Source: Candidatus Nomurabacteria bacterium RIFCSPHIGHO2_02_FULL_35_13 (GTDB lineage: Bacteria > Patescibacteriota > Minisyncoccia > Phycocordibacterales > UBA9973). Taken from it: 33,589 bases of DNA. The DNA lies in assembly GCA_001785515.1 (NCBI GenBank), contig MFTY01000015.1, positions 1-33,589 on the forward strand, in the 5' to 3' direction. A model generated the notes under the pieces. That model searched no databases, was not told the DNA's origin, and worked only from the letters and a program-made list of their open reading frames with translations. The translations under genes were made by a program, and so were the position numbers. Position 1 is the stretch's first letter. Every line of letters begins with the position of its first letter. Positions 8,212 to 33,589 of this stretch are shown here, piece by piece.

Positions 8212-10659
8212 TTACTTATGACTTTTTCCTGCGCTTGCCGGGACAGCAATAGCATTAGGTCCATAATATACTTTTCTTGCGGAGAGAACGAGTAGGGTAA
8301 TTACCAAGATAAGCAAAAGCCATCCCAATAGAGTATTTGGGAAAAAACTATCTCCAAATAAGAAAGCCAATGCTCCTTGCTGTATCTCTGCCCTTCCCTC
8401 TATGGTATTTTTTGCATAAGCGAAAACTTCTTCTTGGGTCTTACTGTCAACTATTGTGTATGCAAGATTGGCTGTAACTACAATAATTTTACCTACTTCT
8501 GCATTAGTCGTTACTTTTATTCTTATACGAACACTGCCTTCTTCTTGTGAATTTAAGCTGTCAATATTAGCTAAAGTAGTACTATTTTCAGGAGAAAAAT
8601 AACCTCTGTTCGTTTCTAGAAATTCCAGTTCTTTTGGAATGGAAATTTGTAAAACAACATCTTTGAGATTTTTTGAAGAAACATTTTTATAATTAACCAC
8701 ATATTCCACGATATCTCCTATTTTTATTGTTTCACCGTCTCGACTGACACTTAATGAGACAAGTGATGGTTTAGAATTTTCAGTAGTATTTGTGTTAGTA
8801 ACCACTGTTGTATTTCTGTAAATGGTATTTGTGTTTGTATTAACAACAGTTGGGCTGATAGTTCTAAAACTTAAAATACTGCCACGGGAAGTCCCATATT
8901 GATTTACCACTACTGCTCGGTAATAATATGTTACGCCTGACGCAAGATTAAATAAACTCTCATAGAAAGGACTTGATTGTGCGTTACCTATGTTTTTGTT
9001 AAGAGTTGTGTTTCCTAATGCTTGAGTTGTTCCGTATTCAAAATATCCAGTAGTATAAACAGCATTATTTACCAAACCAAGGCCATTTAATCTGGCGCTT
9101 GATTGACCGATATTTGTAGCAATAGCTGTAATGGCTGTTGGCGTGCACGTATTATAACCATATGTATTACTCCCACATGTGTTGTTATATGTGTATCCGC
9201 CATTTGTTACAAAAGTCAAAGTATTACCATAAACAGTTGTTCCACCATTACCCCGAGCTGCTGCTCTGTAATAATAGGTAGTATTTGAATTAAGATTATA
9301 CAATGATTCACTAAAGTTTCCCGCATAAGTTCCTTGGTTTATTCTGCTAGTTGAAGTGTAAAGGCGACTGTAAGAAGTGCCCCATTCAAACCATCTTGTA
9401 GCATAAGAACCATTAGGGTCAATATAACCATTTAAGACAATGGAAGTATCATTAAGTCCTGTTACGTAATATGTTGTTACAATAGGTCTGTTCGTATAAC
9501 CATAACAGTTATAAGTATTACAATAATCATAATCATCACTTGTAGTTGTAAAAGTTCTTTGATTACCGTAAACGGTTGTTCCATTATTACCCCGAGCTAC
9601 TGCGCGAAAATAATATGTGGTATCTTCTTCAAGACCGCTTAAATAATAATTATAATTAGTACTGATATTTGAACCGTAACTAACCCGATTGGTTTGATTA
9701 TAATAATTTGAGTTAGTGCCCCATTCAAACCAAGCACTTACATTTGTATTGCCATTTGAACTAACATAACCATTAAGAGTTGCATAATTATCACCTATAT
9801 TAGTGGCTGAACTTGTACTAACATCTGGAATTAAATTTTGTTGGCTATCAACTACAACCGTTACCGAATCATTAGCTAACCCGTTACTATCACTACAATT
9901 AATATTGTAAGTTGTTGTGTTGGTTAAAGCTCCAGTATAGAAATTACCAGAAGTAAGATTATTTGTGTTGAAGTTTGTACCTACACAAGATGTCGCATCA
10001 GTGGATGACCAACGAAGGTATGTTGAACCGCCATAATTTACATTTAAACTGTCTGCGGTTAAAGAGACGGTTGGGTTTGAAACAGATTGTGGTGCTACAC
10101 TAACAGTTATTGAATCGGTTGTTGACCCGCTACTGTTATTGCAAGTGATACCAAAAGTAGTATTTGAAAACAAACTGCCTGTTGATTGGTTTCCTGAAGT
10201 TGCTTTATTTCCAGACCATCCACCGCTGGCATAACAAGATGTCGCATTGATAGATGACCAGTATATTACAGAAGAGTTTCCATAAGATACGAATATTGGA
10301 TTGGCATAAATCGTAATACTCGGAGTTTGAGGGATAGGGGAATTAACCACAACCGTTACAGAATCACTAGCTGACCCGTTACTATCACTGCAATTAATAT
10401 TGTAAGTTGTTGTATTAGTTAAAGTTCCAGTGTAGAAACTGCCGGAGGTAAGATTATTTGTGTTGAAGTTTGTACCTACACAAGATGTCGCATCAGTGGA
10501 TGACCAACGAAGGTATGTTGAACCGCCATAATTTACATTTAAACTGTCTGCGGTTAAAGAGACGGTTGTAGCTAAGGCGACCGTTGCAACAGAAAAAAGA
10601 CTGAAGAGTACTATAACACCCAGTATTAGCCCTAAAAATAATTTTATTTTTTTATTCAT
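8212..10659 (-). CDS. Large secreted/cell-surface protein with Ig-like, fibronectin-like and DUF11-like modules
   Basis: 815 residues, very rich in Asn, Thr, Ser and Tyr. A signal peptide ends near ALA at residue 30. Three Ig-like repeats follow (about 31-107, 112-190 and 196-272), each with a conserved ATSC...C pair likely to form a disulfide; repeats 1 and 3 are almost identical. Then come three fibronectin-III-like modules (about 278-372, 390-486, 505-600) with FEWGT and TTYYYRA signatures, a Thr/Asn linker, a DUF11-like domain (about 630-755) and a C-terminal membrane helix (about 779-800) with a short basic tail. The layout indicates a wall-spanning surface stalk or adhesin. It has its own promoter. 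Confidence 0.85.
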   Translation of the reverse strand: MNKKIKLFLGLILGVIVLFSLFSVATVALATTVSLTADSLNVNYGGSTYLRWSSTDATSCVGTNFNTNNLTSGSFYTGTLTNTTTYNINCSDSNGSASDSVTVVVNSPIPQTPSITIYANPIFVSYGNSSVIYWSSINATSCYASGGWSGNKATSGNQSTGSLFSNTTFGITCNNSSGSTTDSITVSVAPQSVSNPTVSLTADSLNVNYGGSTYLRWSSTDATSCVGTNFNTNNLTSGNFYTGALTNTTTYNINCSDSNGLANDSVTVVVDSQQNLIPDVSTSSATNIGDNYATLNGYVSSNGNTNVSAWFEWGTNSNYYNQTNRVSYGSNISTNYNYYLSGLEEDTTYYFRAVARGNNGTTVYGNQRTFTTTSDDYDYCNTYNCYGYTNRPIVTTYYVTGLNDTSIVLNGYIDPNGSYATRWFEWGTSYSRLYTSTSRINQGTYAGNFSESLYNLNSNTTYYYRAAARGNGGTTVYGNTLTFVTNGGYTYNNTCGSNTYGYNTCTPTAITAIATNIGQSSARLNGLGLVNNAVYTTGYFEYGTTQALGNTTLNKNIGNAQSSPFYESLFNLASGVTYYYRAVVVNQYGTSRGSILSFRTISPTVVNTNTNTIYRNTTVVTNTNTTENSKPSLVSLSVSRDGETIKIGDIVEYVVNYKNVSSKNLKDVVLQISIPKELEFLETNRGYFSPENSTTLANIDSLNSQEEGSVRIRIKVTTNAEVGKIIVVTANLAYTIVDSKTQEEVFAYAKNTIEGRAEIQQGALAFLFGDSFFPNTLLGWLLLILVITLLVLSARKVYYGPNAIAVPASAGKSHK
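9854..10073 (-). repeat. Direct repeat copy 2 inside the surface-protein gene
   Basis: About 220 bp nearly identical to 10349-10568, offset by exactly 495 bp (165 codons). It encodes the third Ig-like unit. The few differences are mostly synonymous or conservative. Confidence 0.85.
10349..10568 (-). repeat. Direct repeat copy 1 inside the surface-protein gene
   Basis: Partner of 9854-10073; encodes the first Ig-like unit directly after the signal peptide. A middle unit of different sequence separates the copies. Confidence 0.85.
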
Positions 10660-24243: not shown

Positions 24244-24645
24244 ATGGCAGGAAATAAAATTGATAAAACAAAACTTACTTCAGTTGACGTTGAAGAAAGA
24301 AAAAAACTTAATTTTAATGCTGGAGACACAGTGCGTGTTTGGTCTAAAGTTTTAGATGAAAAAAACAAAATACGTTTACAAGCCTTTGAAGGTATAGTAT
24401 TAGCTCGCAAGCATGGCATGGAGATTGGTGCCACTTTTACAGTCAGAAGAATTGCTTCAGGAGTTGGAGTAGAAAGAATTTTTCCTCTTTATTCGCCGGC
24501 AATTGATAAAATTGAAATAACTAAAAAATCTCGCGCTCGCAAATCAAAACTTTATTACATTCGTGTTAAAGCGGTAAAAGACGTTCGTCGAAAATTGCGT
24601 TCAGTGGTGTTAGAAAACGAAGACGAAACCAAGAAAGAAGAATAA
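24244..24645 (+). CDS. rplS: 50S ribosomal protein L19
   Basis: 133 residues with the L19 core: FNAGDTVRVWSKVLDEKNKIRLQAFEGIVLARKHG, FTVRRIASGVGVERIFPLYSPAIDKIEI and RARKSKLYYIR. L19 lies at the subunit interface of the ribosome. The usual neighbours trmD and rimM are absent, so the gene appears to stand alone. A large inverted repeat begins exactly at its stop codon. Confidence 0.96.
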   Translation: MAGNKIDKTKLTSVDVEERKKLNFNAGDTVRVWSKVLDEKNKIRLQAFEGIVLARKHGMEIGATFTVRRIASGVGVERIFPLYSPAIDKIEITKKSRARKSKLYYIRVKAVKDVRRKLRSVVLENEDETKKEE

Positions 24646-24741
24646 AAATCACAAGGATTAAAAATTTCTGAGCCTTCGCCCTCGGAGTCATAAGGACAAG
24701 GGACCCACGACTCTTAAAATTTTCAATCCTTGTGATTTTTT
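24645..24741 (+). terminator. Long inverted repeat with GC-rich loop after rplS
   Basis: Arms 24645-24667 and 24717-24739 pair at 22 of 23 positions (AAAATCACAAGGATT and complement, extended by an A/T block). The 49-nt loop (24668-24716) is GC-rich with GAGTC/GACTC and GGGACCC. The right arm ends in a T run, so the whole can act as terminator. The large foreign-looking loop parallels the element in polA. Confidence 0.7.
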
Positions 24742-31343: not shown

Positions 31344-31841
31344 GTGAAAAAGGAAACTAAAAAATACAAGAGGCCTAGTTGGGATGAATATTTTATTGGT
31401 ATGGCAAATTATGTTGGTTCTAGGGGCACTTGCGACAGGGGAAGAAGCGGATGCGTGATTGCTCGCGATAAAAGAGTTGTTTCTACAGGCTATGTTGGTT
31501 CACCCCCAGGTCTTCCACATTGCGATGAAATAGGCCATGAAATGCATAAAGTTATCAATGAAGATGGTTCTGAATCACAACATTGTATTAGAACCGCGCA
31601 CGCGGAACAAAATGCTATTTCACAAGCAGCAAGGTTTGGAATCTCTGTGGATAGCGGGACCTTGTATTGCAAAATGACGCCTTGTTATACTTGCGCTAAA
31701 AGCATAATCACAGCGGGAATTAAAAGAGTGGTATCGGAAAAGGATTATCATGCTTCCAAAAGAAGTAAGGAAATTTTTAAAAAAGCCGGAATAAAATTGG
31801 AAATTATAAATAAAAAAATTGAAAAATATTTAAGACAATAA
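31344..31841 (+). CDS. dCMP deaminase-family protein
   Basis: 165 residues with the cytidine/deoxycytidylate deaminase zinc site: HAEQNAI (His ligand and catalytic Glu) and CKMTPCYTC (two Cys ligands). CVIARDKRVVSTGYVGSPPGLPHCDE matches the dCMP deaminase/ComEB group. It converts dCMP to dUMP, the thyA substrate, fitting the cluster with thyA and folA. It starts with GTG at 31344. TATATT ends 6 nt upstream, giving a leaderless mRNA; the AGAGG just before the GTG is too close to act as an SD. Confidence 0.93.
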   Translation: MKKETKKYKRPSWDEYFIGMANYVGSRGTCDRGRSGCVIARDKRVVSTGYVGSPPGLPHCDEIGHEMHKVINEDGSESQHCIRTAHAEQNAISQAARFGISVDSGTLYCKMTPCYTCAKSIITAGIKRVVSEKDYHASKRSKEIFKKAGIKLEIINKKIEKYLRQ

Positions 31842-31844
31842 TTT

Positions 31845-31919
31845 TACCTGTCCCGTACTAAATTTTTGATTACGGGGTATAATGATAAGGATTATTAATA
31901 AAATTTTAGTACTGGGATG
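31845..31919 (+). promoter_or_regulatory. Twin promoter element, copy A
   Basis: 75 bp that recur in inverted orientation at 32793-32867 with one mismatch. It contains CCCGTA/TACGGG, TATAAT (31878-31883) and terminal arms CCCGTACTAAATTTT and AAAATTTTAGTACTGGG that are inverted repeats of each other. It ends exactly on the ATG of the MazG-like gene and begins 3-4 nt after the dCMP deaminase stop. Confidence 0.88.
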
Positions 31920-32246
31920 GTTGACTTAAAAAAACTGCAAAAAGAAGTGATGAGAAATAAACTGGAGAAGGGATTTAACACAACTGATGTTGCGTTGGAA
32001 TTTTGTCGAGCGCACGAAGAACTTTCTGAAGCTTTTTCCAAACACAATAAAAACCAGCTCGGTGTAGCTGAAGAGTTTGCCGATGTGGCGATATTTTTGC
32101 TCGGAATATCAGAAATTCTTGGTTATGACCTTGAAGAAGAGTTGGTTAGAAAAATTGATATAAATAAGAATAGAAAATATAAAAAAGAAAAATCTCCCGA
32201 AGGAAAAGATGTTTTTATAAGAGTCAGAACCCCCGAAGACCCATAA
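31917..32246 (+). CDS. MazG-like nucleotide pyrophosphohydrolase
   Basis: 109 residues, all helical. The metal-binding pattern EELSEA ... EEFADVAIFLLGISEILG matches the ExxE-(12-28)-ExxD motif of MazG/dUTPase-like all-alpha NTP pyrophosphatases. The likely role is removal of non-canonical or excess (d)NTPs, plausibly producing dUMP or dCMP for the neighbouring enzymes. The start codon lies in the 75-bp repeated element. No Shine-Dalgarno. Confidence 0.8.
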   Translation: MVDLKKLQKEVMRNKLEKGFNTTDVALEFCRAHEELSEAFSKHNKNQLGVAEEFADVAIFLLGISEILGYDLEEELVRKIDINKNRKYKKEKSPEGKDVFIRVRTPEDP

Positions 32247-32279
32247 AAAATAAAATCCCCATTCGGGGATTTATTTTTT
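32245..32279. terminator. Bidirectional terminator between the MazG-like gene and folA
   Basis: AAATCCCC/GGGGATTT (8 bp, loop ATTC) flanked by A-rich and T-rich runs on both sides. It overlaps the folA stop region. Confidence 0.88.
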
Positions 32280-32795
32280 GATATATTCCACAAACTCTAA
32301 ATCATATTTATTTAAAATATCTTTTGAATATTTCTCGCTTTTATTTTTTTGCCAAATTTTTTCGTCAATAACAGGGAAAAAAGCATCAGCGTCAGAAAAT
32401 TCTGCATCCACATGTGTGATATAAAGTTTATCCGCCTTTTCTATAAATAATTTATATATCTGCGCTCCGCCAATAATAAAAACTTCTTCATCTGGCCTGG
32501 CCTCGCCCGTAAGGCTATGGCCGAGGGAAGTCTTTTTTAACAAATCATCAAATTCTTCCAAAGAATGAACGATTTCCAGTTCTTTTATGTTAAATGAAAT
32601 GTCTTTTGTTAAAATAATATTTCTGCGTTTAGGAAGAGGGCGTCCAATTGATTCGAAGGTTTTTTGGCCCATCGCTACCGTATGTCCTGACGTTGTTTCT
32701 CTGAAATGTTTCATATCGGCCGGTAAATTCCAAAGAAGTTCGTTCTTTTTTCCAATTTCATTATTCTTGCCAATTGCGGATATTATTGAAATCAT
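32271..32795 (-). CDS. folA: Dihydrofolate reductase
   Basis: 174 residues. MISIISAIGKNNEIGKKNELLWNLPADMKHF carries the active-site loop with the acidic residue in ADMKHF; GHTVAMGQKTFESIGRPLPKRRNIILT and VFIIGGAQIYKLF are the NADPH-binding motifs. It regenerates tetrahydrofolate after thymidylate synthesis. About 12 residues before VFIIGG (TSLGHSLTGEARP) look inserted and are encoded by GC-rich DNA. The start lies in twin element copy B, and thyA is upstream on the same strand. Confidence 0.95.
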   Translation of the reverse strand: MISIISAIGKNNEIGKKNELLWNLPADMKHFRETTSGHTVAMGQKTFESIGRPLPKRRNIILTKDISFNIKELEIVHSLEEFDDLLKKTSLGHSLTGEARPDEEVFIIGGAQIYKLFIEKADKLYITHVDAEFSDADAFFPVIDEKIWQKNKSEKYSKDILNKYDLEFVEYIKK

Positions 32796-32867
32796 CCCAG
32801 TACTAAAATTTTATTAATAATCATTATCATTATACCCCGTAATCAAAAATTTAGTACGGGACAGGTA
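32793..32867 (-). promoter_or_regulatory. Twin promoter element, copy B
   Basis: Inverted copy of 31845-31919 (74 of 75 identical), between the thyA stop (32871) and the folA ATG (32795), which is its last codon. Identity stops at once beyond both ends. Confidence 0.88.
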
Positions 32868-32870
32868 TTT

Positions 32871-33589
32871 TTATATTGCTATTTCAAATTTAATTCTATC
32901 ATAACTTTCATATCCTATAATTTCCGTATCAGTATATTGCCAATCAAAAATTGATTTGAAATTATTTGTTTTAATTTGCGGTAATTTATATTTATTTGAA
33001 TCTCGTGTCAATTGTTCTTTTAGACCATCAGCATGATTGAGATATATATGTGTGTCAGCCAAAAAACCAGTAAGTATTCCTTCTTCCAGTCCGGTTTCTA
33101 AAGTAAGCAGATGTAATAAAGTCGCATAGCTTGCGATATTAAAAGGCAGTCCGAGCGCTACATCAACACTACGCTGACTCCAAAACAGATTAAGACGATT
33201 ATTGATAACTGTCACTTGAAACGCATAATGACAATATGGCGGAACTACTTTATCAACATCTACCGGATTCCAGGCAAGCACCAACATTTGTCGGCTGTCG
33301 GGTTTTGTTTTCAACATTTCTATCATGCGCTTCAATTGGTCAACTCCTTTTCCAGTATAATCTGTTTGATAATCTTTATATTCAGCGCCAAAATGTCGCC
33401 ATTCCCAGCCGTAAATAGAGCCCAAGTCGCGTTCTTCCAGCATCTTCTTTTTTGTTTCTCCATCATGGTTATAAGGAACTTTCAAAGGACTACACCATTC
33501 ATCCCAAATATGATTATTTCTGTCTTGCAACCATTTTTTGTCGGTAATACCTTTAATAAAAAATTCCAGTTCGGAAGCAACTAGACGAA
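32871..33589 (-). CDS. thyA: Thymidylate synthase (5' end outside window)
   Basis: The frame is open through the right edge; visible upstream residues RLVASELEFFIKGITDKKWLQ match the ThyA N-terminal region, so the TTG at 33530 is not the start. The core has the catalytic Cys in PPYCHYAFQ, WSQRSVDVALGLPFNIASYA for dUMP and folate binding, and DTHIYLNHADGL. It methylates dUMP to dTMP with methylene-tetrahydrofolate. Tyr stands directly before the catalytic Cys, where Pro is usual. It precedes folA, separated by twin element B. Confidence 0.95.
   Translation of the reverse strand, partial: RLVASELEFFIKGITDKKWLQDRNNHIWDEWCSPLKVPYNHDGETKKKMLEERDLGSIYGWEWRHFGAEYKDYQTDYTGKGVDQLKRMIEMLKTKPDSRQMLVLAWNPVDVDKVVPPYCHYAFQVTVINNRLNLFWSQRSVDVALGLPFNIASYATLLHLLTLETGLEEGILTGFLADTHIYLNHADGLKEQLTRDSNKYKLPQIKTNNFKSIFDWQYTDTEIIGYESYDRIKFEIAI

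Follow-up and report, generated by a model that had tools for sequence, protein, structure and literature searches.

REPINs consist of two inverted conserved arms that enclose a variable spacer (PMC8049555). Rickettsia palindromic elements (RPEs) are found between genes or, in frame, within coding sequences (PMC2229807, PMC10969869), and MITEs such as Correia/NEMIS, ERIC and RUP are transcribed into stem-loops able to affect the adjacent mRNA (PMC2229807). REPINs and these other small palindromic repeats are the closest in build (PMC8049555, PMC2229807, PMC10969869) to the previously unnamed family of elements described here, which is positioned at the start codons of genes in Candidatus Nomurabacteria and their relatives. 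No repeat family in the literature that we consulted for comparison docks on start codons, and the position suggests that the element recognises, or depends on, the point at which translation starts.

The window, by which we mean the whole stretch of 33,589 nucleotides analysed, contains the gene pairs dcd-mazG and thyA-folA, which face one another (Table 1; the names of the dCMP deaminase, mazG-like, folA and thyA genes come from sequence and context). Two 75-nt repeats at 31845-31919 (+) and 32793-32867 (-) are inverted copies with one mismatch (AAGGATT / AATGATT), and in a repeat search no inverted repeat of the window is longer, the arms being 31838-31922 and 32790-32874 (94% over 85 nt). 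In both copies the first base lies 3 nt past an upstream stop, which ends at 31841 for the dCMP deaminase gene and at 32871 for thyA, and the last bases are the ATG of the next gene (mazG-like, 31917-31919; folA, 32795-32793). Each copy is also an imperfect palindrome in itself (GTCCCGTACTAAATTTT / AAAATTTTAGTACTGGGA), and on these points of position and symmetry the original prediction was borne out. It had also drawn attention to a TATAAT in each copy; the hexamer is present in both, but since most other copies have CATAAN at that place, it is not a conserved feature of the family. The insertion boundaries of copy 1 were set by analogy with an empty and a filled ftsA site and with empty mazG sites (see below), at which the orthologs of the mazG-like gene start at the same ATG. 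Because the mazG copies of other genomes are more divergent, and the other folA copies are of a different subtype, the single-base difference between the folA and mazG copies of the window fits, as far as sequence comparison goes, recent local copying or conversion within this lineage, as the original prediction had proposed in its idea of gene conversion. A separate palindrome, ATTCTATAATTCTATAGAATATTAGAAT, is found a short way upstream of the folA ATG in two genomes (L120, L123) and once elsewhere (L094), and is perhaps a second hairpin family.

Table 1. Features of the facing dcd-mazG and thyA-folA gene pairs in the window.
Feature	Coordinates	Strand	Basis
dCMP deaminase-like ORF, stop 3 nt ahead of copy 1	31344..31841	+	sequence and context
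Element copy 1 (ACCTG...CTGGG, 71 nt), in the gap between the dCMP deaminase and mazG-like genes, abuts ATG	31846..31916	+	repeat comparison
5' arm of copy 1 (GTCCCGTACTAAATTTTT)	31850..31867	+	predicted fold, -17.2 kcal/mol; conserved pairing
3' arm of copy 1 (AAAATTTTAGTACTGGGATG), partner of the 5' arm, takes in AU of the start codon	31900..31919	+	predicted fold; conserved pairing
mazG-like nucleotide pyrophosphohydrolase ORF, ATG abuts copy 1	31917..32246	+	sequence and context
folA (dihydrofolate reductase) ORF, ATG 32795-32793 abuts copy 2	32271..32795	-	sequence and context
Element copy 2 (71 nt), in the gap between thyA and folA, abuts the folA ATG	32796..32866	-	repeat comparison
thyA (thymidylate synthase) ORF, runs past the window end, stop 3 nt ahead of copy 2	32871..33589	-	sequence and context

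This genome and its relatives were searched for the element and for the genes behind it, a check that the original prediction had proposed. The own genome (554 kb, a Candidatus Nomurabacteria draft of 28 contigs) has seven copies including the window pair; the five others, with 77-92% identity, precede dnaQ-like, rpsP, rpoD, ddl and ftsQ genes, and all end in a form of TTTTAGTACTGGGATG, the ATG of which is the start codon. The idea of a repeated cassette with identity ending at the ATG is thus upheld by further copies in this and related genomes, whereas a shared regulator site for dTMP synthesis, also proposed, is not supported, given these five genes and the approximately 114 gene families that follow the element in the genus. 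With a covariance model of 26 copies (E up to 0.01) the element was found in 59 of 80 genomes of the genus, these being drafts, one per species, with weak copies lost to search filters, and exact matches to the 5' arm among named genomes are mostly in Candidatus Nomurabacteria. Beyond the genus, the order-wide search added three genomes in 397, one of them in a genus of the same family (g26) and two in other families, all with long versions of 100-115 nt; a sample of the phylum gave 2 of 379 other genomes, g26 again among them, and a terminal-pattern search added G582, whose loop and stem are related to those of the G553 copy. Outside the genus the family is thus represented by rare long or divergent versions in the phylum. 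One record titled as a Burkholderiales bacterium (JAMPXW010000002.1, L106) also carries the element and looks mislabelled.

The draft state of the own genome might point to an assembly artefact or a chance palindrome, the probability of which is negligible: it is refuted by the same element being present in dozens of independently assembled genomes of different groups. A reversed control pattern gave no matches in 14 genomes, and this, together with the five additional copies in the own genome, places the element far from chance. Two further candidates were rejected. Two element patterns had no exact match in viral contigs, arguing against a phage origin, and an Rfam search, arguing against a known RNA family, gave nothing near a gathering score, the best match at the element being to SAM-II with 18.9 bits against a cut-off of 44. 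Nothing relevant came from literature searches on repeat families of Nomurabacteria or on repeats at start codons.

The position of the element was examined in 186 copies from 50 genomes, parsed by one procedure and drawn from about 140 stretches taken from match lists regardless of their surroundings, plus those returned by searches. ATG terminates 176 of the 186, and in 173 it starts an ORF that has at least 60 codons or is open at the end of the stretch; the search patterns include the ATG, which gives a slight bias towards it, and up to five errors were permitted in the 3' arm. Clustered, the downstream gene products make up about 114 groups; most are housekeeping genes, and they include (named by eye) ribosomal proteins, nusG, rpoD, ftsA, ftsQ, mreB, obgE, lepA and infB, as well as alaS, serS, atpA, smc, folA, ddl and rpsP. 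RPEs are likewise palindromic, approximately 100-150 nt long, spread over many unrelated conserved genes and without a known transposase, but the element stops exactly before the ATG (173/186) instead of lying in frame inside ORFs. A few copies do read through into ORFs, as RPEs do: about 10 of the 186 are off an ATG, and in several of these an ORF begins inside the element. In L055, L077:2714-2824 and L261 it begins in the loop of a long version and continues through the 3' arm as ...KILVLG..., and L269 resembles them; the read-through gives the unrelated secreted-looking proteins of these four loci a common signal-peptide-like start. In 28 copies an ATG-started uORF, often MTTIINNLKF, closes at the TAG of the 3' arm, and a subtype (L136, L238, L252, L256, L266, L267, L271, L278 and others) has the uORF in the loop with its TAG 7 nt before the ATG of the gene. 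The uORF codon-position counts (5:28:37) are no proof of coding, and a conserved leader peptide was set aside as an explanation.

Landing at start codons may reflect either targeting of the start codon or very strong selection against other sites. If real, well over a hundred genes, essential ones included, have had their 5' ends rewired by a single mobile or copied sequence, and this raises the questions of how the element finds start codons and how a strong hairpin at the AUG is tolerated or used. The streamlined genomes of Patescibacteria (0.5-1 Mb) are thought to hold little surplus DNA.

The surroundings of the copies indicate their place in the transcript. In 100 of the 186 copies the element is at most 15 nt from a same-strand stop, and 33 of the other 86 have a TATAAT-like hexamer (at least 5 of 6 matches) 5-8 nt before the first base of the element. 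Many of the genes look leaderless or lack a Shine-Dalgarno sequence, and at empty mazG sites with no near upstream gene a promoter-like box is found a few bases before the ATG, as for leaderless genes. Judged from these motifs, the element appears to sit between the transcription start, or an upstream stop, and the AUG. Because the -10 boxes are outside, or an upstream stop is directly before, we regard it as a transcribed leader and not as a promoter cassette, which had been the original proposal. Mobile promoters share the placement of a repeated sequence right upstream of unrelated genes, but here the promoter box is not part of the repeat and many copies are inside strings of genes. It is correspondingly very improbable that the pair is a mobile promoter cassette and forms a switch in which the mazG-like gene and folA trade places by inversion; the two window copies are indeed inverted and nearly identical, and each has its TATAAT, but that motif is not conserved in other copies. 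In 30 loci of relatives, chosen as holding enough of the four genes, the swapped order was sought and mazG was never beside thyA, nor folA beside dcd, most loci hold a single element, and the window copies are but two of the seven in their genome.

Conservation of the dcd-mazG-folA-thyA block across the genus allows filled and unfilled sites to be compared. The mazG site is filled in G000 (the own genome), G033, G065 and G068, and the folA site in G000, G011 and G014; at the unfilled sites the ATG follows the upstream stop by no more than about 15 nt (0-15 nt past the dcd stop at the empty mazG sites) or lies behind a promoter-like box. The ftsA locus gives the sharpest boundaries. Empty ftsA sites read ...GAAGCnAAAT/ATGATAAGAAATATT, and filled genomes have the element exactly at the slash, with the upstream ORF running into it. 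Between the sister genomes G102 (empty) and G014 (filled; support 100), both of which have ...GAAGCnAAAT/ATGATAAGAAATATTTCA, the difference is an insert of 76 nt in G014 (ACTTGTCCC...ACTGGG) between AAAT and ATG, with no bases duplicated or lost. The element is similar to MITEs in being short and in having terminal inverted repeats, but Correia/NEMIS, ERIC and RUP have target-site duplications with TA termini and the element has none in this pair, nor was a parent insertion sequence found for it. Because of the lack of a target-site duplication, its absence at the Y1 genes examined (see below) and its fixed position, we have not filed the element as a MITE, REPIN or RPE.

On an ftsA tree of 36 genomes, built on this one gene, the state of the ftsA site changes nine times, and at least three of the changes are forced by well-supported branches. 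The scattered states therefore imply that the element has been gained repeatedly, lost precisely or passed from species to species, and precise excision or horizontal exchange could account for part of the pattern. These data bear on the suggestion that the family is an ancient cis-regulatory RNA regulon, in which many ancestral genes had the leader, a trans-acting factor binds it and different lineages have kept different subsets. The arms are strongly conserved across families, rpsP bears the element both in the genus and in another family, housekeeping genes (assigned by eye) are prominent, and copies within a genome show no excess in mean similarity, all as a regulon would predict. However, over 100 gene families would have had to carry the element in the ancestor; at ftsA the empty state, in which the upstream gene overlaps, looks ancestral while filled sites are scattered; and identical copies stand before unrelated genes. 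We consider this explanation improbable.

The element is predicted to fold into one long hairpin of -17 to -22 kcal/mol with the AU of the AUG within the stem. In an alignment of 101 copies the arms are paired in 98.4% of cells, and seven pairs have double changes, with 19 double-changed cells compared with 1.6 expected (0/500 shuffles), and far lower covariation when the register is slid. G.U pairs outnumber A.C mismatches by 27 to 13 (p 0.04), a modest sign that pairing occurs in the sense RNA, although a role in single-stranded DNA is possible. In four copies (L121, L265, L276, L277) a mini-hairpin is inserted in the 5' arm (GTA/ACGGCTTTGC/CTAA and relatives), and its three-base stems differ between copies yet match and covary; in a distant family the element at rpsR retains the termini ACCTGTCCCG and CTGGGATG around an inner stem that is entirely different (GTTAGAAATTT/AAATTTCTAAC). 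In L202 and L124 an inverted repeat, GTAGTAGAATTT...AAATTTTACTACGG, which resembles the inner stem of the element, is located just upstream of promoter-like boxes. When the 3' arm of the consensus is made unavailable, a local hairpin, CCCGUA/UACGGG, is predicted at -12.9 kcal/mol. This alternative 5' hairpin is frequent in the genus and has no covariation beyond chance, so that a two-state switch is a mere suggestion. RNA thermometers and translational riboswitches similarly sequester a start codon in a stem, with a possible alternative 5' hairpin and compensatory changes, but the element has no Rfam match near the gathering score, is a single family before more than 100 unrelated genes, and is repeatedly gained or lost at its sites.

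The explanation that we favour, and consider probable with appreciable room for doubt, is that these are small non-autonomous palindromic elements, akin to REPINs or MITEs, that inserted just 5' of start codons and are transcribed as a leader hairpin. Insertion would occur immediately 5' of the start codon, with flanking bases neither lost nor duplicated, and in the transcript the element would then form the 3'-terminal 72 nt or so of the downstream gene's leader. In the mRNA the two conserved arms would form the long hairpin and, because the AU of the AUG lies in its 3' foot, the start codon would be partly sequestered; with the 3' arm free, the shorter hairpin of the 5' arm could form. The likeliest effect would be control of, or accommodation to, translation initiation, as the AUG would be met at the foot of a hairpin both by ribosomes that finish at the upstream stop and by ribosomes that start at the 5' end of mRNAs that would otherwise be leaderless. 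The hairpin may repress free initiation until a ribosome that terminates at the upstream stop opens it, or alternatively it may fold such that stop and start come together; either would explain why both the pairing and the position of the element have been kept. We infer that the pairing acts in RNA, that translation is what it controls, and that new copies arise by a transposase-like or conversion mechanism. A bolder version, which is possible but which we offer tentatively, is that this is a new class of mobile element that targets the start codon itself. It would insert precisely at practically any gene, with the AUG on one side and a leaderless transcription start or an upstream stop codon on the other; an RNA intermediate or a step linked to translation might be involved, and the inserted element would work as a bistable start-codon hairpin.

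Recent copying of the elements is suggested by the copies themselves. Identical elements precede three unrelated genes in G013, and identical copies are also present in G022 and G064. The closest relative of a copy is in its own genome 16.3 times compared with 5.4 expected (0/1000), but mean loop similarity is no higher within genomes (0.690) than between them (0.691), so there has been no strong genome-specific burst; such a burst was rejected on the mean-similarity test, though the nearest-neighbour test is positive. In 14 genomes nearly every 5' arm has a 3' arm 50-115 nt away, and no long element was seen there. Comparison of gene counts with copy number in genomes of the genus tied no transposase or other copying enzyme to the family. 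Copy number correlates weakly with Y1_Tnp (rho 0.29) and with reverse transcriptase (rho 0.25), kinship being ignored, and these genes are missing from several copy-rich genomes, Y1_Tnp not being found in G068, G071, G078, G080 and G100. At six Y1 loci examined there was no good element copy near the gene, with at most weak arm matches with four errors. Neither a Y1 transposase nor a reverse transcriptase is thus an obvious partner, the association being weak and the exceptions many.

The same data bear on a selfish repeat of REPIN or MITE type without a regulatory role, which would insert broadly and survive only between a stop or transcription start and an ATG in compact genomes, its hairpin being kept for the copying enzyme. 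REPINs are REP doublets that RAYT Y1 transposases move. The element is like them in having two inverted conserved arms and a variable spacer (PMC8049555), in a single-strand hairpin, in being non-autonomous and in its low-copy, long-term turnover. The genus carries many Y1-type transposase genes, which are commoner in element-rich genomes (36/44, compared with 19/36 of the others; p 0.008, kinship ignored), and old copies decay, as seen at ftsA. However, a selfish repeat should be tolerated at other intergenic positions, which are nearly vacant, the Y1 genes and the copy-rich genomes behave as described above, and divergent copies maintain their pairing through compensatory change. REP sequences, moreover, are described as extragenic palindromes and the element is docked on start codons; its arms are not known to resemble any REP sequence. 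We therefore regard a purely selfish repeat as unlikely. A Y1-type transposase gene is located on the same contig as both window copies, about 2.2 kb past the window (G000 contig C15:35820-36041).

Two other features of the window are worth recording. An 815-aa ORF at 8212-10659 (-) has internal direct repeats, one pair of which (9847-10073 and 10342-10568) is 227 nt long with 94% identity, and at 24644-24740 two 24-nt arms form a near-perfect inverted repeat around a 49-nt spacer.
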